NCBI GenBank assembly: GCA_021443565.1 | Contig: JABUTS010000054.1 | Span: 1-36,791, forward strand | Length of the DNA stretch: 36,791 nucleotides | Reading direction: 5' to 3' | Source: Bacteroidales bacterium | Lineage (GTDB): Bacteria > Bacteroidota > Bacteroidia > Bacteroidales > UBA932 | In this document: piece after piece, positions 8,509 through 24,334 of the stretch | Layout of the letters: each line of letters starts with the position of its first letter | How positions within the stretch are numbered: position 1 is the stretch's first letter | Notes under the pieces: generated by a model | Told to the model about the DNA's origin: nothing | What the model saw: only the letters and a program-made list of their open reading frames with translations | Databases searched by the model: none | Position numbers and translations under genes: made by a program

Positions 8509-9969
8509 TCAGTCTTCGTAGCCCTCTGTCTGAACGAGATTATGGTTGAGGGAAAGTTCGGCGAGAGGAATCGCGTAGTAAAGGGGAACGACTATGCCCG
8601 CCTCCTTCCTCGCCTTGAGGTTAGGAACGGTTTCATAGATGTCAATCACGCCCTCGTGGTGGAAGCGCACGAGATCCGGCCAGCGCCTGTTCTCGAGCCA
8701 GAACTCCCTGAATCTCTCGTCGAGAATCTCGAGTTCTACTGACTTCTTGTCCGTTGCTCCGTCATACTTACCCAGACCGGCTCTCGCCCTGATGATGTCA
8801 AGCTGCTCGACAGCCTTTGTGGTTTCTCCCATGGCTGCGTAAGCCTCAGCCTTGAAGAGTATCATCTCGGCATGGCGGTAGAGGATGATGTCGTCGTCAT
8901 AAATGACATTGGTCTCGGTCTTGGTTCCCACCATCTTGTTCTGGGAGGTGAAGCCGGTATATACGCCGTTGGCATCCACCGCATCAATGTAGGCGCAGGC
9001 CTTGCGGGCGTCACCCTTGTATGCGGAGAATTTCTCCCTTGCTATGTCAGAAGGATAGTAGCTGCTGCGGGATCCGCTCTTCGCGTAAGGAATCTGGTCC
9101 TTGTTGGCAGCCTTCTCCACAAACACGTCGCGGAGAGTCATGAACTTGCCGTAGTGGTCGGTAATCTCAGGGTAGCCGAAATGTATTGACCATATCACTT
9201 CCTTGCCGTTGCGGTTGCCCACATTGTAGATGTTCCTCACATCCTCCTCAAGGGAAGTTCCGGCCATAGCGAGGTCGGCATACTTTATACATTCCTTAAG
9301 GTCGGCATCCCCGCCTCCGAGCACCTTTGCTCTCCAGAGGTAGATGTCGGCGAGAAGGGCATAGGTGCCAAGTTTTGATGCCAGGCTCTTGTTTCCTATC
9401 CACTTGTCGTCCGAGAAGAAGAAAACTGCAAGTTCGGCATCGGCGATGGCCCTGTTAACCACCTCAAGCTTCGGTGACCTTGAAGGGAGAGGCTTGGCAG
9501 AGCCGACGGTAGGTTCGGTCTCGATGCAGGCGTCACCCCATGCCCTCGCGAGGAAGAAATAGGTGTAGGCGCGCATTGCATAAACCTGGGCAAGCACGTC
9601 GTCCTTATCCTCCAGCTTCGTGTAAGTGACCTTATCAATGTTGTAGATGATCATGTTGCAGTGCTGGATCACACTGTAATAGTCAGCCCATGAAAGGCCG
9701 TTGAGGGAGGTAAGGTTCTGGGCCCACTGGTTGGAGCCGCTTCCCTCGGCGCCGCCGATGAAGCCGTCGCCTCTTGCCTCGAAGTATTCAAGAGAGTTGA
9801 ATGCGCTCCTGAACAGAGTGTATGTGCCGGTAAGGTAGCTGCTCACCTCGCCGGTGGTGCTCCAGTAGCCGGAGCCGTAGATAGCCGAAGGATTCTCGAC
9901 ATTCAGCAGGTTGCAGGACGCAAGCAGGCAAGCTGCAGCGCAGCAAAGTATATTTCTTATCTTTTTCAT
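8509..9969 (-). CDS. SusD/RagB family nutrient-binding lipoprotein
   Basis: The 486-aa protein is the lipoprotein lid that pairs with the SusC porin to capture glycans at the cell surface. A lipoprotein signal ends at LLASC (Cys19). The typical SusD features follow: TPR-like helices in the N-terminal half (YAMRAYTYFFLARAWGDAC) and the C-terminal block AEAYAAMGETTKAVEQLDIIRARAGL with ERFREFWLENRRWPDLVRF. It closes with IPLAELSLNHNLVQTEGY, the usual SusD end. It lies 12 bp after the SusC gene. Ligand specificity cannot be read from sequence, but the locus points to sialylated glycans or sialic acid itself. Confidence 0.95.
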   Translation of the reverse strand: MKKIRNILCCAAACLLASCNLLNVENPSAIYGSGYWSTTGEVSSYLTGTYTLFRSAFNSLEYFEARGDGFIGGAEGSGSNQWAQNLTSLNGLSWADYYSVIQHCNMIIYNIDKVTYTKLEDKDDVLAQVYAMRAYTYFFLARAWGDACIETEPTVGSAKPLPSRSPKLEVVNRAIADAELAVFFFSDDKWIGNKSLASKLGTYALLADIYLWRAKVLGGGDADLKECIKYADLAMAGTSLEEDVRNIYNVGNRNGKEVIWSIHFGYPEITDHYGKFMTLRDVFVEKAANKDQIPYAKSGSRSSYYPSDIAREKFSAYKGDARKACAYIDAVDANGVYTGFTSQNKMVGTKTETNVIYDDDIILYRHAEMILFKAEAYAAMGETTKAVEQLDIIRARAGLGKYDGATDKKSVELEILDERFREFWLENRRWPDLVRFHHEGVIDIYETVPNLKARKEAGIVVPLYYAIPLAELSLNHNLVQTEGYED

Positions 9970-9981
9970 ATTGCCTGTTCT

Positions 9982-12900
9982 TTAGAATGAAAGGTTAAGG
10001 CCGAAGCTGAACTCACGAGGTCTCGGGTAGAAGCCGTAGTCATAGCCGTTGTAGAGTTCAGGCACCATGCCGTCGTAAGCTGTGAGATAGCCGACGTTAT
10101 ATACGCCGCCGAATACCTGGAGGCCCTTGAGATGTATGGCCTTGACAGCCTTGTCCGGCAGATTGTATGAGAACGATATCTCTCGGAGGGCAAGGTAGTC
10201 GCCCTTGTGGTAGAACATCGAGGTGTTGGTCTGGCCGGACGTGCTTGCTCCGATGGATTCGCCCGAGCGGGTGAAGTTCCTCAAGCCGTAGTCGGAGTCC
10301 GACATAGGGGTGAAGCGAGGATACTTCGCATCAGGGTTTTCAGGAGTCCAGCAGTCGGTAAGGGCTGCACCGAAGGTATTGAAGTTGTTACGTATGCTGG
10401 CGAGGCCGTAGCCGAGATTGCCGTTGTTGATGACATGGCCCATTGCAAAGTCAGCTATCACCCTGACGGTAAGTCCCTTGTAACGGAACTCATTGGTAAT
10501 GCCGCCGAGCTTGTCAGGACGGATCCAGCCCATGAACACCATATCCTTGGCATTGATGTAGCCATCGTTGTTGCGGTCTTCCCAGATGGTGTCGCCCGCA
10601 TATTTCTTGCGGCCCTTTGCCTGCTCGTCGTAAGGGGCAAGGGCAGCCTCCTCGTCAGTCTGGTATACGCCTATGGCGTTGAAAGCCCAGCGTCCGCCGA
10701 ACCTTTCGCCCTCTGCGAAACCGCCGACCTTCACGTCCTCACCGGTGACAGGGTCGTAAACGTAGTTTCCGCCCGTACGGTTGAGAAGCTCGCCGTTTTC
10801 AGGCTGGGAGAGTATTATGGTGCGGTACCAGGTGAAGTTGAAGCCGAGATTCCACGAGAAGTTCCTTGTGCTGACAGGCACGGCATTCACCTCTACTTCT
10901 ATACCCTTCGTGCCCATTGAGCCGTAGTTGCACTTTATCGAAGAGTAACCGGTGGTCGAAGGCAGCTTGTTGTCGTAAAGTCTGTCGTATGTGATTTTGT
11001 TGTAACCATCAATAGCGAACTCAAGACGGCCGTTGAAGAAGCCGAGGTCGAGGCCGAGGTCATAGGACTCCGTGGTCTCCCAGAGCAGGTCGGCATTGCC
11101 GAGTGTGCTGTTGATGATGCCGACCTCACCGAGGTAGGTAGTGCCGGTGATGCCGTACTGGCCGTAGGTATTGGCGAGGGTGAGGCTGTTGTTGCCTGCC
11201 TGACCGTAGCTTGCGCGGAGCTTGAGTTTACTCATCGCCTTGCGGGCATTCTTGAAGAAGCCTTCCTTGTGGATGTTCCAGCCGGCGGATGCGCCTGGGA
11301 AGTAGCCCCACTTGTGGCCCTCGGAGAATCTTGACGAACCGTCGGCGCGGAGGCTTACGGAAGCCATGTACTTGCCGTCATAGTCATAGTTGACACGGCC
11401 GAAGTAGCTGAGCATGGCCTCGTTGGTTCTGGTTGAACTTGTCCTCTGGGTAGAGTCAGCCGTTGCGTTCAGGGTCGGAATGAGGTCAGTGGAAGCGCCG
11501 CTGCCGCTGCCTGAAAGCGCGAACTGATTGTCTGTGGTGTAGGTTGCGCCCGCAACCGCGCTGACATGGTTCTTCTTTATCTTCTTGTCGTATGAGAGAA
11601 TGGCGTCAGCCTGGATATGGCCGTTGTACTGGTGGGCCGCAGAAGCAGGACGGATTTCAGTACCCGTCGTTGCGTTAAGCGCCTCGAACGAACTGGTCAC
11701 ACCCTCTGAAGATGTATAGTAGATGGTAGGGGCAAACTTGAGACCGTCGATGATCTGCCACTCCGCACCCATCTGGAAACCAACCCTATACTGGGTGTTC
11801 ACGGTGTACTTGGTCTTGTAGTAGTTCTCGTACTCGCGAGGACGGAAAGAGCTCATTCCTTCACCCTCTGCCGGCATGCCGTTCTCGTAGTAGAGGCGGT
11901 AGGTAGGCGGCATGAGAATCGCTCTCTGGAGAGAATTCACGGCGTTCGACATCGTGTTGCGGTCGCCTATGTTGAGGTTGGCCTTCGAGAAGAACTTGAG
12001 GTTCCTGTTGACCTTGTACGAGCCGTTGAAGGTAGCCGAATAGTTCTTGTACCATGTTCCCCTGACTATACCGTCCTGGTTGAGGTGGTGGAGGCTGGCG
12101 TAATACGTAGCCTTGTCGTTGCCGCCGGACACGTCGAAGTTGTATTCGTGCTTGAGGGCGGTTTTATAGGTTGCATCCTGGAAGTCTGTGTCCATGAATA
12201 TGAGAGAGCGTCCTGTGACGGGGTCGATCATGGTCTCCCAGCCCTTGTTCTCGAGTAGGTCAGCCACGAACTCCTGGCCATACTTGGCAAGGAACACGTC
12301 AGTGAACTCGAGGGTGTTGGGAGAATCGAAGTCATTGCCCGTAGACATGCCGAAAGAGCCCTTGAGGAACTTGTCCTTGTCTGCCTGAGAGGCGCGAGGG
12401 TCTTCGTTGATGGCCTTGCGGGTGAGGTACACATACTCCCTCGCATTTAGAAGGTCGAGACGCTTGGGCTGCTGGTCAACGCCCAAGGTATAGCGGAAAT
12501 TGACCTTGACCTTGCCGGTCTGCCCCTGCTTTGTGGTCACGAGTATGATACCGTTGGCTGCGCGGGCACCGTAGATTGCGGTCGAAGCGGCATCCTTGAG
12601 CACTTCCATCGACTCGATGTCGGCAGGGTTGATGTCGGCAATGGACCGGGTTCCCTGTGAAACCACTCCGTCCACGATGATGAGAGGGGTGTCGGACGAC
12701 ACGCCGGTGGTCGTACCGCCACGGATGAACATTGCAGAAATCTCGCCCGGCTGGCCGGAAGTCGCCTGAACGGAAAGTCCCGGAACCTTGCCCTGAAGCT
12801 GTGCGAGCACGTCCTGCTGAGGAGAGTGGTCGAATTCGCTTGCGGAAACCTTGGTGATGGAGTTGGTGAGGAGAGCCCTCGACTGCGAGCCGTAACCGAT

Positions 12901-13254
12901 TGAAACGGCCTCTTCAAGAAGTTCAGCGTCATCCTTCAGAGTCACGTTGACGATTGCCGCATCACCCACCGTCACTTCCTCAGGAAGCATTCCCATGAAA
13001 GAGTAGAGGAGAACGTCTCCCTTCTTCGCATTGAGAGAGTACTTTCCGCCGGTATCTGACATGACACCCTTCGAAGTACCCTTGATCTGCACTGTTGCGC
13101 CAGGCAACGGAGCGCCTGTCTGGTCGAATACCGTACCGGAAACAGTATTTCCGCCAGTGTTCTGGGCAGAGGCGGAGTATACGTTCAGCAAGGTCAGACC
13201 CATGACAACCAGCACTGCGGACAGCATTGTCCCCAATTTAAAGTTGCATTTCAT
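9982..13254 (-). CDS. SusC/RagA TonB-linked outer-membrane transporter
   Basis: This 1090-aa protein is the TonB-dependent outer-membrane channel paired with the SusD-like protein. Domains in order are a signal peptide (residues 1-30, ending SASAQ), a carboxypeptidase-regulatory-like domain (VSGTVFDQTGAPLPGATVQIKGT), a TonB-box-like EEAVSIGYGSQSR near 110-125, and a plug with the SusC signatures MFIRGG, PLIIVDGV, IESMEVLKDAASTAIYGARAANGIILVTTK. A 22-strand-type barrel follows, ending FSFGLNLSF with a terminal Phe. The TonB box is VSIGYGSQ rather than the common VVVGYGTQ. There is no N-terminal STN domain, so signalling through an anti-sigma factor is not suggested. It starts 39 bp after the upstream sialidase and has no obvious promoter of its own. 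Confidence 0.96.
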   Translation of the reverse strand: MKCNFKLGTMLSAVLVVMGLTLLNVYSASAQNTGGNTVSGTVFDQTGAPLPGATVQIKGTSKGVMSDTGGKYSLNAKKGDVLLYSFMGMLPEEVTVGDAAIVNVTLKDDAELLEEAVSIGYGSQSRALLTNSITKVSASEFDHSPQQDVLAQLQGKVPGLSVQATSGQPGEISAMFIRGGTTTGVSSDTPLIIVDGVVSQGTRSIADINPADIESMEVLKDAASTAIYGARAANGIILVTTKQGQTGKVKVNFRYTLGVDQQPKRLDLLNAREYVYLTRKAINEDPRASQADKDKFLKGSFGMSTGNDFDSPNTLEFTDVFLAKYGQEFVADLLENKGWETMIDPVTGRSLIFMDTDFQDATYKTALKHEYNFDVSGGNDKATYYASLHHLNQDGIVRGTWYKNYSATFNGSYKVNRNLKFFSKANLNIGDRNTMSNAVNSLQRAILMPPTYRLYYENGMPAEGEGMSSFRPREYENYYKTKYTVNTQYRVGFQMGAEWQIIDGLKFAPTIYYTSSEGVTSSFEALNATTGTEIRPASAAHQYNGHIQADAILSYDKKIKKNHVSAVAGATYTTDNQFALSGSGSGASTDLIPTLNATADSTQRTSSTRTNEAMLSYFGRVNYDYDGKYMASVSLRADGSSRFSEGHKWGYFPGASAGWNIHKEGFFKNARKAMSKLKLRASYGQAGNNSLTLANTYGQYGITGTTYLGEVGIINSTLGNADLLWETTESYDLGLDLGFFNGRLEFAIDGYNKITYDRLYDNKLPSTTGYSSIKCNYGSMGTKGIEVEVNAVPVSTRNFSWNLGFNFTWYRTIILSQPENGELLNRTGGNYVYDPVTGEDVKVGGFAEGERFGGRWAFNAIGVYQTDEEAALAPYDEQAKGRKKYAGDTIWEDRNNDGYINAKDMVFMGWIRPDKLGGITNEFRYKGLTVRVIADFAMGHVINNGNLGYGLASIRNNFNTFGAALTDCWTPENPDAKYPRFTPMSDSDYGLRNFTRSGESIGASTSGQTNTSMFYHKGDYLALREISFSYNLPDKAVKAIHLKGLQVFGGVYNVGYLTAYDGMVPELYNGYDYGFYPRPREFSFGLNLSF

Positions 13255-13293: not shown

Positions 13294-14460
13294 CTAATAG
13301 GTATAGTCAGCCTTGATGTCGGTGAAGTGGATGGACGAGAAGACTATGCCTCCCGTATAGTTCTGGCCGGCCTCGAAGATTATTCCTATCGACTTGCCTT
13401 CGTTGAGCAGCACGAGGTCGGAATATGCCGAGTACATGCCGTCACCGGAATCAGCCGTATACCTGTATTGCTTCTTCCAGGTGAGACCACCGTCATAGCT
13501 TACCTTCACCGAGCCGAAGCGGCGGGAGGTTGCGTGGGTAGGGTTGGAGAAGAGGAGCACTGACTTGCCGTTGGACTCGTCCCTGAAGGTCAGCACAGCC
13601 CCTTGACAGCCCTTTGTAGGTTCAAGCAGGAGGCTGCTCTGGTCTACCGCAAAGGTCTTGCCTCCGTCCCTGCTGATGGCATCGTAACGGAAATAGTTCG
13701 TTCCGTCCTGCGGGCTCGAGTAGTTGCGGGCGTTGTAATAGATGTCACCATTGGCAAGTTCCGCCACGGTACCTTCGTTGCCCACCTTCATTGACGCTCC
13801 GTAACTCCAGTTGAAGCCTCCGTCGTCGGAATAGAGGCAATGGGCCGGACGTCCCGAGCACCTTGCCGGCACTATGAGCCTGCCCTTGTTGGGCTCGTGC
13901 TGCTTCTGGATGCCGTGCACAGGGCCGCAGAGCATGCTTTTAGCCTTAACCTGGGTTGTGATGTCGGTGTCTTTGGTCCAGGTCTGACCGTTGTCGTCGG
14001 AGAAGCACACGAGTATTTTCTCGGCCGAGGTGGCGTCCTTGCTGTTCCAGCACCACATGAGCATGATGCGTCCCGTATCCATGGTTATGGCTACAGGGTT
14101 GCAGCAGCGGCATTCTCCGTCGTCCCTCACAGCGACAAGCTTGGACCAGGTCTTTCCGTTGTCGGATGAGCGCTTCATCACTATGTCTATATTACCGAAA
14201 TCGGAAGAACCATTCACTCGTCCTTCGGCGAAACACAGTATGTCACCGTTCTTCGCCACTATGGCGACCGGTATGCGGAAGAACTCGTAGCCATCCTCCT
14301 TGCATGAGAAAATCCTTATCCTTTTATATAGAGGGAAATCATCCTCAACCTTCGGATCGTCGTCGGTTTTCCCTCCGCCTCCCGGATTATCCTCTTCGCA
14401 GGCGCTGCACAAAGCTATGGAAAGAAGCGACGCTGCAAGTGCTATGAAAATTCTCTTCAT
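13294..14460 (-). CDS. Sialidase (GH33-like), surface lipoprotein
   Basis: The start is set at 14460 (MKRIFIALAASLLSIALCSAC) rather than the listed 14547, because the extra 29 residues overlap the lyase gene and precede an evident lipoprotein signal. The protein is then 388 aa. The mature end CEEDNPGGGGKTDDD is acidic right after the Cys, resembling the lipoprotein export signal that sends proteins to the outer surface in Bacteroidota. It has the FFRIPVAI motif, DFGNIDIVMKRS, Asp boxes SSDNGKTW, SDDNGQTW, SDDGGFNW and SYDGGLTW, and the terminal YSAYSDLVLL with IIFEAG. The role is release of sialic acid outside the cell. It lies 4 bp after the lyase gene and 39 bp before SusC. Confidence 0.9.
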   Translation of the reverse strand: MKRIFIALAASLLSIALCSACEEDNPGGGGKTDDDPKVEDDFPLYKRIRIFSCKEDGYEFFRIPVAIVAKNGDILCFAEGRVNGSSDFGNIDIVMKRSSDNGKTWSKLVAVRDDGECRCCNPVAITMDTGRIMLMWCWNSKDATSAEKILVCFSDDNGQTWTKDTDITTQVKAKSMLCGPVHGIQKQHEPNKGRLIVPARCSGRPAHCLYSDDGGFNWSYGASMKVGNEGTVAELANGDIYYNARNYSSPQDGTNYFRYDAISRDGGKTFAVDQSSLLLEPTKGCQGAVLTFRDESNGKSVLLFSNPTHATSRRFGSVKVSYDGGLTWKKQYRYTADSGDGMYSAYSDLVLLNEGKSIGIIFEAGQNYTGGIVFSSIHFTDIKADYTY

Positions 14461-14464
14461 ATCC

Positions 14465-15373
14465 TTAATGTGTCTGGAAACCGATTTCGTCAAGCTCTGA
14501 CCTGAGGGTGTCGAGTTCATCCTTGCTGTATGGAGTGACAGGAACACGGCAGTTGCCGCAGTCTATGCCTATGAGTTTCATGATGGCCTTTCCGCCGCGG
14601 ATTCCGCCTCCGTGCCTGATTATGACGTTCACTATGTCTATGGATTTCTGCTGCCATACCCGTGCGCCCTCAATGTCGCCGGCAAGGAAGCAGTCCATAA
14701 TGCCAGTGTAGTATTCAAGGCAGTAGTTGTATGTACTGCCCACTCCGCCCTTTGCGCCTACTGCCATGCCGCAGAGCAGCATCTCGTCGAAGCCGTTGAG
14801 GATGTCGAACCTGCCGCCTTCACAGTTTATGCATTCCATCATCTCCATGAAGTTGTTGGAAGTGAACTTGATGCCGTTGAAGTTAGGAATCTCCTTGCCG
14901 GCAGCCTTCAGGAAAGGCACCTGCGGAAGGTTGATGCCCGACATGGAAGGAATGTGGTAGGCGTAGAGAGGAATAGGGGCTATGGCCTCGCCTATAGGCT
15001 TGTAGAAGTTGATGAGATCACCGGTGCATGAAGGCTTCGCATAATACGGGGCGATTGCACCTACCGCGTCAACTTTCAGGCTTGCCGCATGCTTCGCCAG
15101 TTCCACGCAGTCCGCGAGGCAGGTTCCGCCCACATGGGCGATGATCCTGCAGCGGCCGTCCACAGCCTTTACCCAGGTCTCAAGTATAGCCTTGCGCTCC
15201 TCCACTGTCATGGAAGCCGACTCACCCGTCGAACCGCACACGAATACGCCGAAGGCGCCCGCCTTTACGAGATGCTCGGCGTATGGATAAATCATATCGA
15301 AATTTACGCTTCCGTCCTCCTTGAAAGGAGTGAACACTGCGGGTACCAGACCCTCAATCTTGAATTTTTCCAT
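14465..15373 (-). CDS. nanA: N-acetylneuraminate lyase
   Basis: This 302-aa class I aldolase of the DapA/NanA superfamily should split N-acetylneuraminate into N-acetylmannosamine and pyruvate in the cytoplasm. The carboxylate-binding motif GSTGES is at 47-52. The catalytic Tyr is in YHIPSMSG (Tyr139), close to the NanA-type YNIPxxSG, and the Schiff-base Lys is in NFNGIKFTS (Lys169). The -KFTS context and the IPSMSG loop favour a sialic acid lyase over dihydrodipicolinate synthase, and three sialidases and the mutarotase/symporter in the same operon agree. Length is normal. It follows the esterase-like gene by 24 bp and is followed by a sialidase after 4 bp. NanE and NanK are not in the window. 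Confidence 0.9.
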   Translation of the reverse strand: MEKFKIEGLVPAVFTPFKEDGSVNFDMIYPYAEHLVKAGAFGVFVCGSTGESASMTVEERKAILETWVKAVDGRCRIIAHVGGTCLADCVELAKHAASLKVDAVGAIAPYYAKPSCTGDLINFYKPIGEAIAPIPLYAYHIPSMSGINLPQVPFLKAAGKEIPNFNGIKFTSNNFMEMMECINCEGGRFDILNGFDEMLLCGMAVGAKGGVGSTYNYCLEYYTGIMDCFLAGDIEGARVWQQKSIDIVNVIIRHGGGIRGGKAIMKLIGIDCGNCRVPVTPYSKDELDTLRSELDEIGFQTH

Positions 15374-15397: not shown

Positions 15398-16441
15398 TTA
15401 TTTCTTCACATTCTCAAGAAAGCATGAAAGGCACTCCATGAACAGAGGCCTGTAGTCAGGCCCTATGGCGTCCTTGCGCCCTCCCTTCTCCTCCTGCAGG
15501 AAGCCGTAGCCGTGGCCTCCCGTCGGGAAAATGTACATCTCCGGACATACGCCAGCCGCCTTCAGGGCATCAAAATAGTCCAGGCTGCTGCGTATCGCCA
15601 CCACCTTGTCGTTCTGGCTGAGAGCCATGAAAGTACGCGGGGTACGGGCGCTGACGCGGTGCTGCATCGAGTATTCCTCCCTCCTGGCAGCGTCTTCTCC
15701 GACAAGGCTGAGGCAGGTGCCTTCATGGTCACGAAGGTCTATGACCGGATATATGAGGACGGAGAAATCCGGCCTTGTGATTTCATCCACAAAAAGGTTG
15801 GAAGCCATTGCCGCAAGGTGGCCGCCGGCTGAAAAGCCCATGACTCCTATCTGGCTCACGCCCCAATCCTGCGCGTGTGCGCGACAATAACGGAAAGCGT
15901 TCTGGACGTCGGTCAGGGGAGCCTGCGTGCGGCCGTTCGGAAGCCTGTAGACCACCACGCACACGCTTATGCCCTTGCGGGTCATCCATTTTGCCACGTC
16001 ATAGCCCTCCTTTGTGGCACAGACCGTGGAATATCCGCCTCCGGGGCAGACAACCACCATCTGTCCGTTCGGATGCTCCGGGAAGAAAAGCTGGATTCTC
16101 GCCCTGTCCCCGACATGGCTCACGTTCCCCCACTCGTTGACCTCCTCGGGTTGGGTGAAGCCGTTCGAGCAACCCGGTCCCAAAGTCACGGCAGTGCCGT
16201 TCTCGACTATGCCCATGTCGACATCCTGCCCCTGCGGATAGAGCAGGATCTCACTGACTCCGGCAAAACTCTCGTTTCCCAGAGCGCAGGCGGGCACAAA
16301 GGTTCCGAGAGTGTCGGTCATGGGAACCGTATCCGTTGAATATGAATGGATTCCTGCTGTGAGAGACGCAGCGCTGCCCAGAAACGGCAGCACTGCAAAA
16401 GCAGCAGTCGCAAGTAATCTGGCAGGGTAGTTCAGTGTCAT
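15398..16441 (-). CDS. Alpha/beta hydrolase, acetylesterase-like, exported
   Basis: The 347-aa product has a signal peptide (residues 1-25) and an about 80-residue extra N-terminal segment. Then comes an alpha/beta-hydrolase fold of the bacterial acetyl-xylan-esterase-like type: oxyanion-loop CPGGGYS near 132-138, nucleophile elbow GFSAGGH (Ser204), acid Asp in SQNDKVV near 278, and catalytic His in TGGHGYG near 309. It is the first gene of the sialic operon, directly at the divergent regulatory region. Secretion to the periplasm fits removal of O-acetyl groups from sialic acids or host glycans before cleavage and import. That substrate is inferred from context; plant polysaccharide acetyl groups are the alternative. 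No similarity to the SGNH-type NanS esterase is visible. Confidence 0.75.
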   Translation of the reverse strand: MTLNYPARLLATAAFAVLPFLGSAASLTAGIHSYSTDTVPMTDTLGTFVPACALGNESFAGVSEILLYPQGQDVDMGIVENGTAVTLGPGCSNGFTQPEEVNEWGNVSHVGDRARIQLFFPEHPNGQMVVVCPGGGYSTVCATKEGYDVAKWMTRKGISVCVVVYRLPNGRTQAPLTDVQNAFRYCRAHAQDWGVSQIGVMGFSAGGHLAAMASNLFVDEITRPDFSVLIYPVIDLRDHEGTCLSLVGEDAARREEYSMQHRVSARTPRTFMALSQNDKVVAIRSSLDYFDALKAAGVCPEMYIFPTGGHGYGFLQEEKGGRKDAIGPDYRPLFMECLSCFLENVKK

Positions 16442-16460
16442 GTCGGTGTAATTTGTCTTA

Positions 16461-16473
16461 TTTGTCGGACAAA
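16461..16473. promoter_or_regulatory. FadR-type GntR operator TTTGTCGGACAAA
   Basis: TTTGTC-G-GACAAA is a perfect inverted repeat around one central base. Its core TTGTCGGACAA fits TNGTNNNACNA, the operator pattern of FadR-subfamily GntR regulators. A FadR-type regulator is encoded about 1.2 kb away in the same locus. The site overlaps the -7 element of the minus-strand operon, so binding should block it. A further half-site TTTGTC lies at 16452-16457. Confidence 0.75.
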
Positions 16474-16477
16474 TATA
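16470..16477 (-). promoter_or_regulatory. Promoter -7 element of sialic operon
   Basis: On the minus strand this reads TATATTTG, an exact TANNTTTG match. It lies about 29 bp upstream of the hydrolase start at 16441 and overlaps the right half of the GntR operator. It would start the eight-gene minus-strand transcript. Confidence 0.6.
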
Positions 16478-16499
16478 AAAAATATATCGGAAAAAATTC

Positions 16500-16507
16500 T
16501 ATTTTTG
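16500..16507 (+). promoter_or_regulatory. Promoter -7 element of sialidase-GntR unit
   Basis: TATTTTTG matches TANNTTTG and lies 33 bp before the chosen sialidase start at 16540. The operator at 16461-16473 is 27 bp upstream of the box, near the -33 position or just above, so it may also affect this promoter. Confidence 0.6.
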
Positions 16508-16539: not shown

Positions 16540-17658
16540 ATGAAAATATCCTCACTTGCCCCGCGTGCCCTTGCCGCAGCAGTTCTCATACTTGCTTCCC
16601 TCTCCGTGTCACGCGCTCAGGACGTCACAGTCTTCGAATGTGGAGAGAACGGCTTTGACACCTACCGCATACCGGCCATAGTCAAGGCTGCTGACGGCTC
16701 TTATCTGGCTTTTGCCGAGGCCAGAAAATTTTCCAGAAGCGACACCGGAGACATTGACCTGGTGCTCAAAAGGTCCTTCGACGGAGGAAAGACCTGGAGT
16801 GCTATCACCACAATCTGGGACGACGGCGAGAACGTATGCGGAAATCCATGTCCGGTGGTGCTTCCGGACGGGGAAATCATTCTCCTGAGCACATGGAACC
16901 GGGGCGACGACCATGAGAAGGACATCCAGGACTATAAAAGTAGGGACACCCGCAGGGTATTCATGCTCCGCTCACGGGACAACGGAGCGACATGGAGCAC
17001 TCCCGTGGAGATAACATCCATGGTAAAGAAGCCAGACTGGGGCTGGTACGCAACCGGGCCCTGCCATGCCGCAGTGATAAGTTCTGGACACCACAAGGGG
17101 CGCATAGTAGTGCCTTCGAACCACAGCGAACACGACAGCGAAGGCAAAGTAGTGGCACGCTCTCAGATAGTATGGTCCGACGACAGGGGCGAGAGCTGGC
17201 ACATAGGGGCCATTTCCGCCCGTGGAGGCAACGAAAGCACGGTCTGCGAGACCAAGGGCGGCGGCCTCATGCTCAACATGCGCAACTTCTATAAGCCCGA
17301 CACCCTCCGCATGGCGGGATTCAGCGCCGACGGAGGCGAGAGCTGGGAGCTCGAGACCATAGCCGGCGACCTCGTCGAACCACGCTGCCAGGGCACCATG
17401 ATAAATCTCTCTACGGGCAAGGCTGGCAAAAAACTCGCTTTCTGCAACCCACGCCACAATGTGAAAAGACGCAATCTCACCTTGAGCATATCGAAGGATA
17501 ACGGCAGGACGTGGCCGGAGCACATCTGTGTATTCGAAGGTCCCGCAGCCTATTCGGACATAGTCCTGACCGGACGCGGCAAGGTCGGAGTCCTGTATGA
17601 GAACGGTACCGACGAAAAACTTTATTCAAGAATTTCATTCAAGATATTGAAACTGTAG
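16540..17658 (+). CDS. Sialidase (GH33-like), periplasmic
   Basis: The start at 16540 is chosen over the listed 16435 because MKISSLAPRALAAAVLILASLSVSRAQ is a complete signal peptide and the promoter-like box lies between the two candidates. The protein is 372 aa with a type I signal and no lipoprotein Cys, so it should be soluble in the periplasm. Family features are TYRIPAI, RSDTGDIDLVLKRS, and five Asp boxes (SFDGGKTW, SRDNGATW, SDDRGESW, SADGGESW, SKDNGRTW). AAYSDIVLT, with the expected nucleophile Tyr, and VLYENG lie near the end. It resembles the minus-strand sialidase at 7319-8473 in stretches such as WGWYATGPCHA/GWYATGPCHA, suggesting duplication. It is co-transcribed with the GntR regulator (10-bp gap) and would work on oligosaccharides already imported by SusCD. 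Confidence 0.92.
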   Translation: MKISSLAPRALAAAVLILASLSVSRAQDVTVFECGENGFDTYRIPAIVKAADGSYLAFAEARKFSRSDTGDIDLVLKRSFDGGKTWSAITTIWDDGENVCGNPCPVVLPDGEIILLSTWNRGDDHEKDIQDYKSRDTRRVFMLRSRDNGATWSTPVEITSMVKKPDWGWYATGPCHAAVISSGHHKGRIVVPSNHSEHDSEGKVVARSQIVWSDDRGESWHIGAISARGGNESTVCETKGGGLMLNMRNFYKPDTLRMAGFSADGGESWELETIAGDLVEPRCQGTMINLSTGKAGKKLAFCNPRHNVKRRNLTLSISKDNGRTWPEHICVFEGPAAYSDIVLTGRGKVGVLYENGTDEKLYSRISFKILKL

Positions 17659-17668
17659 ATTACCGCCC

Positions 17669-18400
17669 ATGGTAGAACTCGAACTCAAAAATAATTCCCG
17701 GAGAAAGACCCTGGTGGACGGCGTGGAAGACGCCCTGCTGGAATACTTCAAGAACAACAACCTAAAGCCGGGTGACAGCATACCCAACGAAATGGAACTC
17801 GCAGAAAGTCTCGGCGTCGGACGCGCTGTGCTTCGCGAGGCGCTCAGCCGCCTTAAAGTGTCGGGCATGATAATCTCGCGCCCGCGCATAGGCATGATGC
17901 TAAGCGAGCCTTCACTCTTCGACGGCATGAGCAAGTGCATCAATCCACTGCTGATGAGCGAGAAGACTCTGCTGGAGATGCTGGAGCTCCGAATGGTGGT
18001 CGAGGAGGGTATATGTTCCAGCATCTTCCTCAACATTACAGACGAGGACATAGCCGAACTTGAGGAAATCGTCGGACTAAGCCAGATGACCGGCGCGTAC
18101 ACCTACACATCCATAGCCGAGCATCAGTTCCACACAAAGCTGTACCAGATAACGGGCAACAGCTCGATCATCAAGTTCCAGAGCATAATCTACCCCATCA
18201 TAGAATATGTAAAGTCGCGCTACAAGGACGCTTTCCGTCCCATAGAGCTGGAACTCATCAAAAGCGGCACCATGGTCACCCACGAGGAACTTCTCAACCA
18301 CATCAAGGCCGGCGACCTGGAAGGCTACCGCAAGGCCGTGGGAAACCACTTCGAAATCTACAGGACCTACATCAAGAAGGTCCGCTCCAAAAACAGGTAG
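17669..18400 (+). CDS. FadR-subfamily GntR transcriptional regulator
   Basis: The 243-aa protein has an N-terminal winged helix-turn-helix of the GntR family (residues about 12-80; PGDSIPNEMELAESLGVGRAVLREALSRLKVSGMI). A C-terminal all-helical FCD ligand domain carries the usual metal/ligand histidines (EHQFHTKLY, TMVTHEELLNHI, VGNHFEIY). FCD regulators commonly sense sugar acids or organic acids through a bound metal. Here sialic acid or a breakdown product is the natural guess. It lies 10 bp after the periplasmic sialidase, in one transcript with it, and the locus contains a matching operator at 16461-16473. It probably represses both arms and itself until the ligand is present. It is convergent with the sulfatase, with 9 bp between stops. 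Confidence 0.9.
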   Translation: MVELELKNNSRRKTLVDGVEDALLEYFKNNNLKPGDSIPNEMELAESLGVGRAVLREALSRLKVSGMIISRPRIGMMLSEPSLFDGMSKCINPLLMSEKTLLEMLELRMVVEEGICSSIFLNITDEDIAELEEIVGLSQMTGAYTYTSIAEHQFHTKLYQITGNSSIIKFQSIIYPIIEYVKSRYKDAFRPIELELIKSGTMVTHEELLNHIKAGDLEGYRKAVGNHFEIYRTYIKKVRSKNR

Positions 18401-18409
18401 GCCTGAAAG

Positions 18410-19846
18410 CTATTTCGTCGGAAGGAAGTCGAGCAGCGCAGACGAGAGCCTTTCCTCGTCAGCCTTGAACGCGCGCCTGCCGGAGAGGTTGCGGCTTTCT
18501 ACCGGGGACTTTCCGCGCAGCCTGTAAAGTTCGGTCGCGACCTGTTCTCCGGATGATGAATCGTACCACTCCACAAGGCGGAAGCGGCGGTCCCTGATCG
18601 CATAGCCCATCTGGCGTCGTGCCGATGCCCTGTGCAGGGCGGAATACGGCCTCGGGAACTGGCTTACGGCGTATTCCTTCCCACCCCTTTCACCTTCAAG
18701 AACATTGACGAAGGAAGATCCTGAAAGAGGCTGGAGCGAATTCATTCCGCACAGCTCCAGCAAGCTTGGATAAATGTCAACGCACTCCACCATGTCCCCC
18801 GCCTTCTTTCCCGCAGCTCCCCGGCCCGACAGGTATTTCTGCGGCACACGTACTATCAGCGGCACTCTGCACGCCGCCTCATAATTCGTTGACTTGCACC
18901 AGAGTGAACGCTCGCCCAGATGATAGCCGTGATCCCCCCAGAGCACTATGATGGTATTCTCGTACAAACCCCTGGCCTTCAATGCTTCCACCAGCCTTCC
19001 GACCTGGGCGTCAGTAAAGGACACGCAGGAATAATAGGCTCTGCGTAGTGCGGCCTCCTGAGCGTCAGTCATGGGGCCGGTCTCGGGTATGTCGGTATAT
19101 CCTCGAAGTTCGTCGCTGTTATGGTAAGAAATTGAAGGTGCGTCGATTATGGAATCCCTCTGCGCAGACGCAAGGCCGAAATCAGTCTTTTCATAAAGGT
19201 CAAAGAAGCGTTCCGGGGCGCAGAAGGGTAGGTGGGGCTTGAGGAAGCCGACGGCGAGGAAGAAGGGTTCGTCCCCCAGCCTTGAGAGGCTGTCTATCGC
19301 CGCGCTGGCGGTGCCATGGTCTATGTACAGGGAATCAGGTGCATCCGCGAATTCAAAGCTCACGCTCTTGCCGCCGGACTTGCGGTTGCCGGGCAGCATA
19401 TATTCGTTGTCGCGGTTGTATCTGTAGCGAGAGGGAGGGACTGACCATGAAAGCGAATCCGCACCGTTCACGTCACCGTGGAAGATTTTGCCTGTGCCCA
19501 CAGTCCTGTAGCCGTTTTCCCTGAAAGCCTGGGGCAGGGTCACCACGTCCGGATTTCTCTGGCGCATGGGCGTATTCAGTTCTGTCACACCCACTTCCTC
19601 CGGGCGGAGACCGGTGAACATCGAGGCTCTGGTCGGGCCGCTAAGCGCCTGCTGACAATATGCCCTGGTGAAGCAGGTTCCCTCAGATGCCAGTGCGTCG
19701 ATATTGGGGGTTATGGCGAGCCTGTCACCATAGCATCCAAGGGTGGGGCGAAGGTCGTCGACGGCTATGAAAAGCACGTTGGGACGCTCTCGGGCCTGGA
19801 GGCACGCGGGCGCAAGGGAGAGCAGGACGAGGGGAAGGGGTCGCAT
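18410..19846 (-). CDS. Sulfatase, serine-type, iduronate-2-sulfatase-like
   Basis: This 478-aa type I sulfatase of the alkaline phosphatase superfamily starts with a signal peptide. Metal-binding Asp residues are in NVLFIAVDDLRP. The formylglycine motif region is ALSGPTRASMFTGLRP, with Ser69 in the position oxidised to formylglycine, so a Ser-type radical-SAM maturase (anSME) is needed. The usual C/S-x-P-S-R is S-G-P-T-R here. Downstream, KPHLPFCAPERF and WGDHGYHLGE give the second metal and substrate residues typical of the iduronate-2-sulfatase-like group. Its ATG overlaps the aldolase stop by one base (TGATG), so the two are translationally coupled. The substrate is probably a sulfated host glycan sugar. 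It is the last gene of the A-T-TE operon. Confidence 0.9.
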   Translation of the reverse strand: MRPLPLVLLSLAPACLQARERPNVLFIAVDDLRPTLGCYGDRLAITPNIDALASEGTCFTRAYCQQALSGPTRASMFTGLRPEEVGVTELNTPMRQRNPDVVTLPQAFRENGYRTVGTGKIFHGDVNGADSLSWSVPPSRYRYNRDNEYMLPGNRKSGGKSVSFEFADAPDSLYIDHGTASAAIDSLSRLGDEPFFLAVGFLKPHLPFCAPERFFDLYEKTDFGLASAQRDSIIDAPSISYHNSDELRGYTDIPETGPMTDAQEAALRRAYYSCVSFTDAQVGRLVEALKARGLYENTIIVLWGDHGYHLGERSLWCKSTNYEAACRVPLIVRVPQKYLSGRGAAGKKAGDMVECVDIYPSLLELCGMNSLQPLSGSSFVNVLEGERGGKEYAVSQFPRPYSALHRASARRQMGYAIRDRRFRLVEWYDSSSGEQVATELYRLRGKSPVESRNLSGRRAFKADEERLSSALLDFLPTK

Positions 19847-20784
19847 CAGATGAAGAATTCCGGTATTATCTGCCTTGCCCTGGCGCGAACCGCCTCAGCG
19901 CATGAAAGCGGAATCGACTGATACGGCCAGCGCAGCTTGGGGCCCACGTCCGCCCATCCGCCGACAAGGGCCATGAAGCGGTCGCAGGCATGGTTGGGAT
20001 AGCCGTCTCGCACGATGAAAGGGTCTATGCACTCGCTCATGAACTTCTGTATCCTGCCCTCGGTTTCCATTGCTGCCTCCGGGTCCTTTCCTATGGTCTC
20101 GTACCACTGTTGGGCAGCACGAGGATTTATGCAGGAAACGTTCGAATACGCTCCGTCCGCCCCATGCAGGATGCCGAAGGCAAGGTGATGGCCCGGAATG
20201 AAAATCGAGAGCCCGCACTTCTTCGCCTCTCGCATCTGCGCATACCATTCCCCGCTGCGGTTGTCGTCGAACACCTTCAAGCCTATGACAGAGTCCACCT
20301 CTGACTTCAGCACTGCCCACTCGGCAGGCTTCATCACCCTCTTTGCATGAGGGGGGTTGTATATGACCATAGGTATGCCCCCGGCATTCTCCTCCATCAC
20401 CTTCAGGAAATCCACAGCCGCCGCGGTGCTCGAAGGGAACCAGTCCGGCAGTATGACCTGGACCGCCCCCGGGCGAAGGTCCCTTATCGCGAGCAGGCGC
20501 TCAAGCGATTCCCCGGCGCAGGGATGGCTCACCCCTATCTGGAAGGGCACCCCGGCAGCCTCACAGCGCGAAGCGAGAATCTCTGAAATCCTGCGGAATT
20601 CGTCCATGGTTTGGGAGTAGAATTCGCAGGCTGTCCCGTTTGAATATATGCCCGAAGGGTGGGCTGCGACAAGCGTCTCAACCTCGTCTTCGAGTCTTCC
20701 ATAGTCCAGCTTTCCTGCCTCGTCAGTGGTCAGGAGCAGTGTTGCCCAGTTGCCTTTGAGGCTGTCTGAAGTAAGTGATTTCAT
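19846..20784 (-). CDS. DapA/NanA-superfamily aldolase, divergent paralogue
   Basis: The 312-aa protein is a class I pyruvate-type aldolase or lyase of the dihydrodipicolinate synthase superfamily. The carboxylate-binding region reads SNGTACEFYSQT (usual GTTGE), the Tyr is in VIYNPPHA (Tyr142), and the Schiff-base Lys is in VIGLKVFDDN (Lys170). It differs strongly from the NanA at 14465-15373, lacking the YxIPxxSG loop, so it should act on another substrate, perhaps another keto-deoxy sugar acid. It is translationally coupled to the sulfatase downstream and follows the glycosyltransferase by 34 bp. A housekeeping DapA is unlikely given the divergent motifs and the neighbours. Confidence 0.82.
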   Translation of the reverse strand: MKSLTSDSLKGNWATLLLTTDEAGKLDYGRLEDEVETLVAAHPSGIYSNGTACEFYSQTMDEFRRISEILASRCEAAGVPFQIGVSHPCAGESLERLLAIRDLRPGAVQVILPDWFPSSTAAAVDFLKVMEENAGGIPMVIYNPPHAKRVMKPAEWAVLKSEVDSVIGLKVFDDNRSGEWYAQMREAKKCGLSIFIPGHHLAFGILHGADGAYSNVSCINPRAAQQWYETIGKDPEAAMETEGRIQKFMSECIDPFIVRDGYPNHACDRFMALVGGWADVGPKLRWPYQSIPLSCAEAVRARARQIIPEFFI

Positions 20785-20818
20785 AACTATCAGATATTAT
20801 CCGTTCAGAAGGGTATTG

Positions 20819-21928
20819 TCAGTTTTCATGGCAATGGACCAGGGCTTCGGCCATACGGCTCCAGCTATAGCGGGATTTGCCCGCCTTTATCCCATCCGAA
20901 AAGTCGGGTTTTTCAGTAAAGAACTCCACAAGCGCGCTGCAGATTGATTCGGGGTCAGGGTGAACGCAATAGCCGGCCTCACGGTCCGGAACAACATCCC
21001 TGAGGGCTCCCACATCTGTCACCAGCATAGGCAGTTCAAAATGATAGGCAATCTGGGTGACTCCGCTCTGGGTAGCCGAGCGGTACGGCAGGGCCACCAG
21101 GTCCGCCAGGCTGAAGAAATGGCGTACGGCATCATCGGGGATGAATTCCGCGAACCAGACGACACGGTCTGCAATGCCCAGACTTTCAACAAGGTCGTAA
21201 TATTTCCTCCCGTCACCATAGAACTCCCCAGCAACTATGAGCTTCTTATCCTTCAGTTTCTCATCGGTGAATGCTTCCAGCAGCCAGTCAAGTCCCTTGT
21301 AATCACGGATAAGGCCAAAAAACAGGGCATATTCCCCCGACGGGTCCAGCCCAAGGGCGGCGGCAGCCTCCTCCCGGCTCTCCTTTTTGCCGAAATGGTC
21401 ATATAGAGGATGCGGGCACACCGTCACAGGCTTCGAATCATCATACAGGCGTATGTCCTTGAGCACTTTGTCGCATAGGGCCACCATTCCGTCCAGAGTC
21501 TTCACGAAATAGCTGGGCAGAAGCTTGTCCATCAGGTTGGCTTCATGCGATATCATATTGTGAATCAGACCTATTTTCCTGACTTTCCTTCCGAGTATCC
21601 TTGAAATCGTGCCGAAACAGGGGGCAAAATAACTCATCCAGTAGGCGAAAACCACCATGTCGGGAGCATCGCGGCGGATACAGCGTCCGGCCCTGATCCA
21701 GTTGAACGGATTGCATGAATTGATGCAGCGCACTATATTCAGTCCTTCGGGGGCCGGGTCATCAGAATACTGGGTGGTACCGGGGAACAAGAAGCCAGGG
21801 TACTGCAGGGTGAAGGTATACAGCGTCACCTCATGTCCCTGCGAAACATACTCCTGCGCAAGGCGGACATTGAAGGCAGCGATACCCCCTCTATACGGGT
21901 ATGAAGGCCCTATGATTCCTATTTTCAT
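20819..21928 (-). CDS. Glycosyltransferase family 4 (GT-B fold)
   Basis: This 369-aa retaining GT-B glycosyltransferase transfers a sugar from a nucleotide donor. The N-terminal Rossmann half starts MKIGIIGPSYPYRGGIAAFNVRLAQEY, with the Gly-rich acceptor-side loop. The C-terminal donor half has ALFFGLIRDYKGLDWLLEAF and the donor-binding stretch LPYRSATQSGVTQIAYHFELPMLVTDVGAL, a Gln variant of the usual EX7E region seen in one GT4 subgroup. There are no membrane segments. It begins 6 bp after the A-T-TE gene stops, so the two are almost certainly co-translated. No capsule or O-antigen cluster surrounds it, so its acceptor may be the product of the A-T-TE enzyme. Confidence 0.85.
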   Translation of the reverse strand: MKIGIIGPSYPYRGGIAAFNVRLAQEYVSQGHEVTLYTFTLQYPGFLFPGTTQYSDDPAPEGLNIVRCINSCNPFNWIRAGRCIRRDAPDMVVFAYWMSYFAPCFGTISRILGRKVRKIGLIHNMISHEANLMDKLLPSYFVKTLDGMVALCDKVLKDIRLYDDSKPVTVCPHPLYDHFGKKESREEAAAALGLDPSGEYALFFGLIRDYKGLDWLLEAFTDEKLKDKKLIVAGEFYGDGRKYYDLVESLGIADRVVWFAEFIPDDAVRHFFSLADLVALPYRSATQSGVTQIAYHFELPMLVTDVGALRDVVPDREAGYCVHPDPESICSALVEFFTEKPDFSDGIKAGKSRYSWSRMAEALVHCHEN

Positions 21929-21934
21929 ACATCG

Positions 21935-24334
21935 TCAGAATTGGGCTGCGTTGACCACCTGGGCGATCCTCCTGACTATGCTTCGGGTGGTCACAATCTG
22001 GTCATGATCGCACGGCATCTCCATCACGGTGATGTCCTCTGCATATTGTGCGAATCCGTTGGCAGGAAGGTGATGGGCGAGGGACTTGGCCAGGTCTGTG
22101 TCGCGGACTTCCTCTGTGCGGAAGAAATTGATATGGGTTCTGACCTTGCCCGACGGAGTATAATTCGCCAGGTCTTCTATCACGCGTATGTTGTTGGTCA
22201 CGAGAGAATCAACGCCGTTTGAAGACCGTATGCCCTCAAAACATTCCTCAGTCTCGAAATATTTCTTCACATTAGGGTCGCAGCCCTGACGCTTGACCAG
22301 ATGGCTGTTGTGCGGTTCTACAAGTATAGGATCCAGCAGGGTAAGGTCCTCTATCACCTCCCCGGCCGCTTCAAGCTGGAGGGCCATCTCGAATGCGACC
22401 GATCCGCCGTAGCTCCACCCTCCAAGCCTGTAAGGCCCCACAGGCTGCACGCTCTTCATAAAATAGATATAGAGTTTTGCTATCTTCTCGACGGATATTA
22501 CAGGTATATCCCTATAATTGAGGTTATGGTTTTCGAAACTGTAGAATGAAATGTCCGGGTCAAGTTCCTCGGCCAGCATACGGTAGGCCTCGGAACCAGT
22601 ATTCGCCGAATGGGCGAAGAAAAGAGGTGTGCGAGGCTTTCTCCTGCCTTCTGTGTAGCAGAACAGGTCCTCTGTACCTATTCTCTTCTGGCTGATGACC
22701 TTGGCGAGTTCGCATATCACCGGATGGGCATATACGTCAAGGGCGGCGATGGCTCCGTACTGAGCCTCCGACACTGCCTGGGCGAGCTGCGTAGCTTGGA
22801 TGGAATCGCCTCCGAGGGCAAGGAAATCATCGTCAATGCCCACCTCGCCGCACTGCAGTATCTTCTGTGTCTGCGCCACAAGGAACTTCTCGGCATCAGT
22901 GACAGGCTTGCGTATCTTCCTGGCAGATTTCTGGTTCGATTCCGGCACAGGCAAAGCCTTGCGGTCGAGTTTGCCGTGGTCGTTTAAAGGCAGGGCGTCC
23001 ATCTTCATATAGGCGGCAGGTATCATGTACTCAGGCAATGAACGTTGCAGCCATGCACGCAGGCTCTCACGGGTTACTCCCTCGTCCGCCACATAATATG
23101 CGCACAGATAGACATGCCCGTTCTTTGAAGTTATATCCTTCACAGCAGCCGCCTTTATGCCCGGCATCTTGCGTATGGTCTCTTCTATCTCGCCCGGCTC
23201 CACGCGCTGACCGTTGATTTTCACCATCCAGTCCTTGCGGTTGATGAAGGTCACGACTCCCCTCTCGTCCATGACTCCGAGGTCACCTGTATGAACTATG
23301 GTTTCGCCGTCTTCGGTCACAGTGAAATGCTGCAGGCTTTCTTCCTCATGGTTCAGATACATGTGGGGGAACTTTCCCTTCGCACATATCTCTCCTTCGG
23401 TCCCGGCAGGCAGCAGGCTTCCCGCCTCGTCGCATATCATCACCTCGACATTATCCAGAGCGACACCTACCGGAGTGTTCTCATACGGCTTGTCCACCAT
23501 GAACTTCGTCAGAGGAAGGGCCTCGCTCTGGCCGTAAAGCACCATCACCTCGTATTCCTCGCTGAATATGTTCACGACGCGCTCGCTGGCAGTGAAGACA
23601 CGGCGCAGGGCCTTGTCGCTGTTCTTGTAGATAAAAAGCATGCGCGGACTGAGGAACATGGTGGTGAGAGAGTGCTTCTCCGCATAACGCGCGAGAGCCG
23701 TGATGTCGCGTCGGGTATCTTCAGCGATTATATGCACACAGCCTCCCGCCATGAGGGTTGCCACGAACTCCACCATCTTAGCCACGAAGGACATTGGAGC
23801 CGTACTGCCGAAGACTATCTCTCCTATCCCGTTGAAAAGTTGCTGCGAGTTGGCTCCCGCAAAATCAAAGTCCCGAACAGTGTAAACCACGCCCTTGGGC
23901 TTGCCAGTAGAGCCAGAAGTATAAATCAGCATGGCATGGTCGGTTTCCTTCATCGGCACCGTCTCTCCACGCTCGTACTGGTCTATATCGTCGAAAAATG
24001 AAAGTTCCACGATCATGCTTGCACTGCAGTCGTTGCGTATGTACTGGATGCGTTCCTCGGGATAGTCCGGTATCAGAGGCACTATGCTGCAGCCATACTT
24101 CAGCACTCCGATTTCTGCGGCGACGAACTCCATGCAGCGCGGCATCAGCACCGTAACATGGTCACCCGGCTTCACGCCCAGTTCCGCGAGTTTTGTCACG
24201 ACCTTGTCCGAAAGGGCATCCAGATCCCCGTAAGTGGTGGAACGCACACCGTTGTAGTCCACAATAGCGACAGCGGATGGCTTCGAAAGGGCATATTCCC
24301 TGAGTTTTTCCAGATATTTCATACTGCGAATCAC
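21935..24334 (-). CDS. Stand-alone NRPS-like enzyme, A-T-TE
   Basis: The 799-aa single-module synthetase lacks a condensation domain. The adenylation domain spans about 1-462, with A3 LIYTSGSTGKPKG (136-148), A5 YGQSEA, A7 TGDLG (349-353), A8 KINGQRVEPGEIE (372-384) and the catalytic Lys in NDHGKLDRKAL (A10). A thiolation domain follows with LGGDSI (Ser511 for phosphopantetheine), then a thioesterase with GWSYGG (Ser641) and His777 in PCDHDQIV. In A4 the residue that normally is Asp235, binding the alpha-amino group, is Val (SFVAKMVEF). Loss of this Asp is known from A domains that use alpha-keto or other non-amino acids, including A-T-TE enzymes that dimerise aryl-alpha-keto acids. The substrate is inferred only. 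M5 (24322) is an alternative start. It is first in an operon with GT4, an aldolase and a sulfatase. A phosphopantetheinyl transferase is not in the window. Confidence 0.88.
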   Translation of the reverse strand: MIRSMKYLEKLREYALSKPSAVAIVDYNGVRSTTYGDLDALSDKVVTKLAELGVKPGDHVTVLMPRCMEFVAAEIGVLKYGCSIVPLIPDYPEERIQYIRNDCSASMIVELSFFDDIDQYERGETVPMKETDHAMLIYTSGSTGKPKGVVYTVRDFDFAGANSQQLFNGIGEIVFGSTAPMSFVAKMVEFVATLMAGGCVHIIAEDTRRDITALARYAEKHSLTTMFLSPRMLFIYKNSDKALRRVFTASERVVNIFSEEYEVMVLYGQSEALPLTKFMVDKPYENTPVGVALDNVEVMICDEAGSLLPAGTEGEICAKGKFPHMYLNHEEESLQHFTVTEDGETIVHTGDLGVMDERGVVTFINRKDWMVKINGQRVEPGEIEETIRKMPGIKAAAVKDITSKNGHVYLCAYYVADEGVTRESLRAWLQRSLPEYMIPAAYMKMDALPLNDHGKLDRKALPVPESNQKSARKIRKPVTDAEKFLVAQTQKILQCGEVGIDDDFLALGGDSIQATQLAQAVSEAQYGAIAALDVYAHPVICELAKVISQKRIGTEDLFCYTEGRRKPRTPLFFAHSANTGSEAYRMLAEELDPDISFYSFENHNLNYRDIPVISVEKIAKLYIYFMKSVQPVGPYRLGGWSYGGSVAFEMALQLEAAGEVIEDLTLLDPILVEPHNSHLVKRQGCDPNVKKYFETEECFEGIRSSNGVDSLVTNNIRVIEDLANYTPSGKVRTHINFFRTEEVRDTDLAKSLAHHLPANGFAQYAEDITVMEMPCDHDQIVTTRSIVRRIAQVVNAAQF

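Follow-up and report, generated by a model that had tools for sequence, protein, structure and literature searches.

Operators of the FadR type, described for the GntR superfamily, share the consensus TNGTNNNACNA. Among the closest characterized systems to the locus studied here is Escherichia coli NanR (PMC8012715; PDB 6on4, 6wfq), likewise a GntR/FCD regulator of sialic acid catabolism, which occupies its operator as three dimers and uses a 32-residue N-terminal extension for cooperative binding. Within Bacteroidales, control of sialic acid catabolism has been attributed to BT0433 of Bacteroides thetaiotaomicron, a NanR of the ROK type proposed from comparative genomics (PMC3878776), and deletion of nanR in B. 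fragilis resulted in constitutive aldolase expression and activity (PMC3969230). The mechanism of the sialic acid response in Bacteroidota has nevertheless been called unclear (PMC3969230).

We analyzed a 36,791-nucleotide stretch of a Bacteroidales genome (the window), which carries a divergent sialic acid locus whose minus unit extends from 16441 down to 3189 with gaps of at most 68 nt (Table 1). The SusC/SusD pairs of the stretch, the type of its promoters and the nearest relatives that were found likewise place it in Bacteroidota. As for E. coli NanR, the regulator gene is linked to nan genes, both here (NanA-like lyase, sialidases, NanU-like SusD and NanM-symporter) and in relatives. The locus shares the control of sialic acid catabolism in Bacteroidales with BT0433 and the nanR of B. 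fragilis, but its regulator is a GntR/FCD protein (Pfam finds only GntR and FCD), whereas BT0433 belongs to the ROK family. We consider it very probable that a palindrome between the two units is the operator of the adjacent FCD-type GntR regulator, which would act as a NanR-like local repressor of this Bacteroidota sialic acid locus.

The last gene in the minus operon joins a NanM-like domain to a symporter, and the recurrence of fusions of similar length in relatives (L052, L165 and L194) suggests a coupled epimerase-transporter. Downstream of the regulator gene, a minus-strand run (18410-24334) encodes a sulfatase, a second NanA/DapA-like protein, a glycosyltransferase and an AMP-binding/carrier/thioesterase protein that resembles a one-module nonribosomal synthetase.

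Table 1. Positions of predicted genes and regulatory elements of the sialic acid locus in the window
Feature	Position	Strand	Basis or remark
NanM-like kelch domain fused to sodium:solute symporter, last operon gene, 825 aa	3189-5666	-	Pfam SSF 5.5e-43, NANM 1.8e-9
PKD and LamG-domain protein	5735-7306	-	Pfam
BNR sialidase-like protein, second BNR protein of minus unit	7319-8473	-	Pfam BNR_2 1.6e-34
SusD-type protein, nearest to sialic acid binder NanU	8509-9969	-	NCBIfam NanU 2.8e-41, under cut-off
SusC-type outer-membrane transporter	9982-13254	-	NCBIfam OMP_RagA_SusC 793 bits, above cut-off
BNR sialidase-like protein	13294-14547	-	Pfam BNR_2; real start probably downstream of listed GTG
NanA-like N-acetylneuraminate lyase	14465-15373	-	Pfam DHDPS 7.3e-61; NCBIfam N-acetylneuraminate lyase best, under cut-off
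Alpha/beta-hydrolase esterase, first minus-operon gene	15398-16441	-	Pfam Abhydrolase_3, BD-FAE
Third half-site, perfect	16451-16457		minus strand GACAAAT (plus strand ATTTGTC); direct repeat of palindrome arm, 9-bp period, one base beyond palindrome
Candidate operator, perfect 17-bp palindrome TATTTGTC-G-GACAAATA	16459-16475		8-bp arms around one base; read from sequence, predicted binding site
Predicted minus-strand -7 box TATATTTG	16477-16470	-	matches TAnnTTTG; overlaps palindrome arm
Alternative minus-strand -7 box TATATTTT	16486-16479	-	TTG at 16510-16508, spacer 21 nt; predicted from sequence
Predicted plus-strand -7 box TATTTTTG	16500-16507	+	matches TAnnTTTG; 24 nt after palindrome end
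BNR sialidase, first plus-unit gene	16541-17658	+	Pfam BNR_2 2.3e-37; 10 nt before regulator
GntR/FCD regulator, 243 aa, NanR-like, second plus-unit gene	17669-18400	+	Pfam GntR 1.5e-15 (57 bits), FCD 1.6e-13 (51.6 bits), both above cut-off

The regulator and its resemblance to NanR

A preliminary description of this DNA had placed a FadR/FCD GntR gene in the plus transcript, and the second gene of that unit indeed carries an N-terminal GntR winged helix-turn-helix and a C-terminal FCD domain, the layout that defines the FadR/FCD subfamily. Its product is the only FCD protein above the cut-off in the genome; another GntR-type gene was observed on contig C101. The best NCBIfam match was NanR (PRK03837), with 94.7 bits and thus below the family cut-off of 260. 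The AlphaFold model of the regulator (mean pLDDT, 91.5) was matched best by Foldseek to PDB structures of a streptococcal GntR protein (6az6) and of E. coli NanR (6on4, third-ranked, and 6wfq), at modest TM-scores (~0.5) that reflect domain orientation. FadR structures were also among its fold matches.

Alignment with E. coli NanR placed the metal-site residues E151, H155, H205 and H227 and the carboxylate-binding R108 opposite Asp172, His176, His222, His244 and Arg128, respectively, the one substitution being Glu for Asp172. The three metal-site histidines and the carboxylate arginine were kept in 21 of 21 aligned homologues, which have either Glu or Asp at the Asp172 position, and the DNA-contact residues E41, R52 and R56 were equally invariant (21/21); the two regulators therefore have the metal-site histidines, R128 and the DNA contacts R69, R73 and E58 (E. 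coli numbering) in common. The other Neu5Ac contacts of NanR (Asn165, Arg203, His214, Asn215, Ser218 and Gln221) were mostly unmatched, in a loop region where the alignment is poor, and the N-terminal extension of E. coli NanR was absent from the regulator alignment. The regulator is predicted to work like NanR, though it stands outside the NCBIfam NanR family.

The palindrome and the two promoters

The candidate operator reads TATTTGTCGGACAAATA over 16459-16475. Within it, the 13-mer TTTGTCGGACAAA (16461-16473) had been singled out as a palindrome fitting TNGTNNNACNA exactly; this is correct, and the site is in fact longer, at 17 bp. Its core TTGTCGGACAA (16462-16472) combines an exact fit to TNGTNNNACNA with a position near the regulator gene and conservation at orthologous loci. 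The short consensus is uninformative alone (6 matches in the window vs 5.1 expected). The perfect palindrome with 8-bp arms and a 1-bp gap occurs at no other place in the window, and when the 99-bp intergenic region was shuffled by dinucleotides, 0.8% of the shuffles produced a palindrome of this kind. A genome scan, which the preliminary description had proposed, returned TATTTGTNNNACAAATA as a single exact copy in the 2.2-Mb genome (88.6% complete), but near-matches were no commoner than those of the reversed control, both for the 13-mer with one mismatch (7 vs 6) and for the 17-mer with three mismatches (70 vs 73). In the scan of its own genome, the exact site alone is informative. A second exact copy of TTTGTCGGACAAA was observed on contig C126 (805-821; L083). 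It lies ~300 bp ahead of genes for a SusC/SusD pair with a weakly NanU-like SusD. We saw no third half-site beside it, and this copy may be a second target or a product of chance.

The third half-site next to the palindrome, which the preliminary description had not mentioned, matches at 7 of 7 positions in the window, and at least 5 of 7 positions match in 17 of 22 aligned sites, compared with a shuffle maximum of 4. The operator of E. coli NanR differs in consisting of three direct GGTATA repeats, (GGTATA)3, whereas here a palindrome is joined by one half-site. Successive E. coli repeats begin at intervals of 8 and 9 bp, and the third half-site here stands in a 9-bp register; we hypothesize, by analogy, that the like spacing reflects a shared recruitment of a second dimer. 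Compared with FadR-type operators, the core consensus is common to both, while the site described here spans 17 bp, has a third half-site and in many relatives includes a -7 element.

The described promoter consensus has TAnnTTTG as its -7 element and TTTG near -33 (PMC7366714). When the 22 sites were aligned toward the downstream gene, a TTG was found 19-21 nt before NNTATTTG in 14 (shuffle mean, 1.4; maximum, 6), and TA precedes TATTTG in 10. Because this -33 TTG precedes the left arm at the proper distance in 14 of the 22 sites, the arm probably doubles as a -7 element. In the window, the minus-strand box TATATTTG (16477-16470) overlaps the palindrome, as had been claimed, but the minus promoter that had been built on it is only partly borne out: the nearest TTG lies 30 nt upstream of this box, not 19-21 nt, so that the minus start may instead use TATATTTT (TTG-N21-TATATTTT, 16510-16479). 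With either minus -7 box, the predicted start region of the minus operon is covered by the operator. The predicted minus leader of ~23 nt is in keeping with the length most often seen for leaders in B. thetaiotaomicron (PMC7366714).

On the opposite strand, the palindrome lies just upstream of the box TATTTTTG, as the preliminary description had it, with 24 nt in between. No TTG was found at 19-21 nt from this box and no -33 element was seen, and the plus box is weak because the TTG is missing at the usual spacing. A TAnnTTTG on both strands was found in 1% of shuffles of the intergenic region.

These arrangements bear differently on the two transcripts. Repression of the 13-kb minus operon is well supported, with repression, rather than activation, the probable sense of the control. 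The case for control of the plus promoter, on which autoregulation depends, is plausible but less strong. The self-control that had been claimed gains from the relatives, in which the operator-embedded promoter usually drives the regulator gene, and loses from the orientation in the window, where the embedded -7 box and the third half-site face the 13-kb minus operon. An alternative that we regard as possible, if rather doubtful, is that the regulator acts differently on the two promoters, repressing the minus operon while activating the sialidase-regulator transcript or leaving it untouched, in which case there would be no simple autorepression. Such a division would suit a palindrome that stands some 40-55 bp before the predicted start of the plus transcript, has its embedded -7 box and third half-site turned toward the minus operon and is followed by a plus promoter with no TTG at the usual spacing; it is opposed by the relatives, where the position of the operator within the regulator's own promoter points to autorepression as the ancestral state.

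Conservation of the candidate operator and its co-divergence with the regulator

Relatives were collected with a DNA-pattern search and a six-frame genome search; a protein-based search of the named genome collection returned zero loci. Close relatives of the regulator are few within its own genus, but clear ones exist in other families. Among those in or near sialic acid genes, the three of highest identity (51, 46 and 45%) have the same palindrome just before their start codons, differing by one base in the third. In two of the three, NanA, SusC and SusD stand alongside together with a sialidase or a NanM-symporter fusion, whereas the short contig of the third carries a NanM-like gene. Two other close homologues, at 48% identity (L053 and L055), have neither the palindrome nor sialic acid genes and may have changed their role; both (L053, 9296-10039, minus strand; L055, 9429-10136, minus strand) were observed to adjoin an aminotransferase-like gene. 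No clear site was seen at two further homologues in sialic acid loci (L056 and L107), and the families of genomes G322 and G181, each with too few genomes, added no close orthologues.

More distant homologues across Bacteroidia are mostly found in sialic acid clusters, accompanied by a sister palindrome, TATGTNNNACATA. In L109, L110 and L116, TATGTNNNACATA was observed at three places in each locus, in front of genes that include nanA, susC and the regulator gene, which indicates multi-site regulons. Over 31 homologue loci, the pattern T.TGT...ACA.A was found 33 times in noncoding DNA (reversed pattern, 2) and 11 times in coding DNA (reversed pattern, 7).

From the DNA side, a search of 393 genomes of the order gave 7 exact copies of TATTTGTCNGACAAATA in 6 genomes, with 3 of the 7 at orthologues of the regulator; the reversed control was found in 5 genomes. 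Of the 4 copies elsewhere, 3 fall within coding sequence, including those in G251 and G349. A scan of the named genome collection with the DNA motif only yielded at least 119 stretches. In at least 17 Bacteroidota loci among them, the palindrome stood no more than 150 bp ahead of a regulator orthologue (40-56% identity), and in at least 3 further loci it was directly upstream of nanA or a sialidase gene. Species with the site include Bacteroides xylanisolvens (XB1A), B. congonensis, B. neonati, Parabacteroides gordonii and Hoylesella buccalis. Among the matches listed, at least about 11 sites belong to other phyla and lie near distant FCD genes (26-29% identity), which is expected if the half-site is of a general FCD type. 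Loci of other phyla with the same 17-bp palindrome near distant FCD genes were L172, L176, L222, L223, L224 (Thiodiazotropha), L154, L158 and others, so that unrelated FCD regulators have the half-site in common.

A tree of 42 regulator rows separated the operator class TTTGT (18 rows) from TATGT (16 rows) by one change with support of 100/99, and none of 500 label shuffles reached as few changes, although the clustering of TTTGT is inflated because 14 of its 18 rows were collected by the motif; the 4 rows that came from protein search group with them. Of the computational signs that the palindrome is read by this regulator, the match between operator class and tree is the strongest. In the recognition helix, no clean covariation of residue with base was seen. 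Taken with phylogenetic footprinting, the co-divergence strongly supports the earlier proposal that the site is the operator of a local regulator controlling the sialic acid operon.

The same evidence bears on binding by another factor, e.g., a Bacteroides Crp-like sugar regulator or another GntR protein, which we judge very improbable. The Crp-like motif TATGTTnTAnAACATA (PMC3878776) does have TATGT/ACATA arms in common with the sister operator class, and the genome does hold the second GntR-type gene on C101. However, TGT and ACA are 6 nt apart in the Crp-like motif and 3 nt apart here, a spacing on which a Crp-like site was ruled out, and that motif has been described for numerous sugar operons, while the palindrome in its exact form clusters at one regulator and its class follows the regulator tree. 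Origin of the palindrome by chance, in intergenic DNA rich in AT, is scarcely credible: the short TNGTNNNACNA does occur at chance frequency and genome near-matches do not exceed the reversed control, but so rare a palindrome among shuffles speaks against it and independent conservation at orthologous loci makes it untenable.

Proposed mechanism and biological meaning

In the mechanism that we propose, with the palindrome as the operator of the FCD-type regulator, a regulator dimer would bind TATTTGTCNGACAAATA, and the third half-site at its 9-bp spacing may help a second dimer or strengthen binding. Bound there, the regulator would obstruct the promoter start region of the minus operon, with which the operator overlaps, and so keep the 13 kb of uptake and catabolism genes from being transcribed; a sialic acid or an early catabolite, bound by the FCD domain, would release the repressor.

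A broader reading, for which we see an even chance, extends this pair to a Bacteroidota-wide FCD-type sialic acid regulon apart from the ROK NanR. Its operator would be composite, joining a FadR-like palindrome, one arm of which serves as the -7 element, to a third half-site. The latter, at 9-bp spacing, would recruit a second dimer in a way that resembles the spacing of the repeats in the E. coli NanR operator. Along the regulator tree, operator specificity would have divided into two classes. No description of an FCD regulon or of this operator was found in the open-access literature searched, and the novelty of the regulon is provisional because the search was confined to open-access papers.

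Sialic acid use shapes the life of gut and oral Bacteroidota on mucus and the feeding of other bacteria. Our analysis offers an exact candidate regulator-operator pair, present also in Bacteroides xylanisolvens XB1A, Parabacteroides gordonii and Hoylesella buccalis, that can be put to the test, and the two classes of operator, each tied to a clade of regulators, may provide a natural set for the study of specificity change in GntR regulators.
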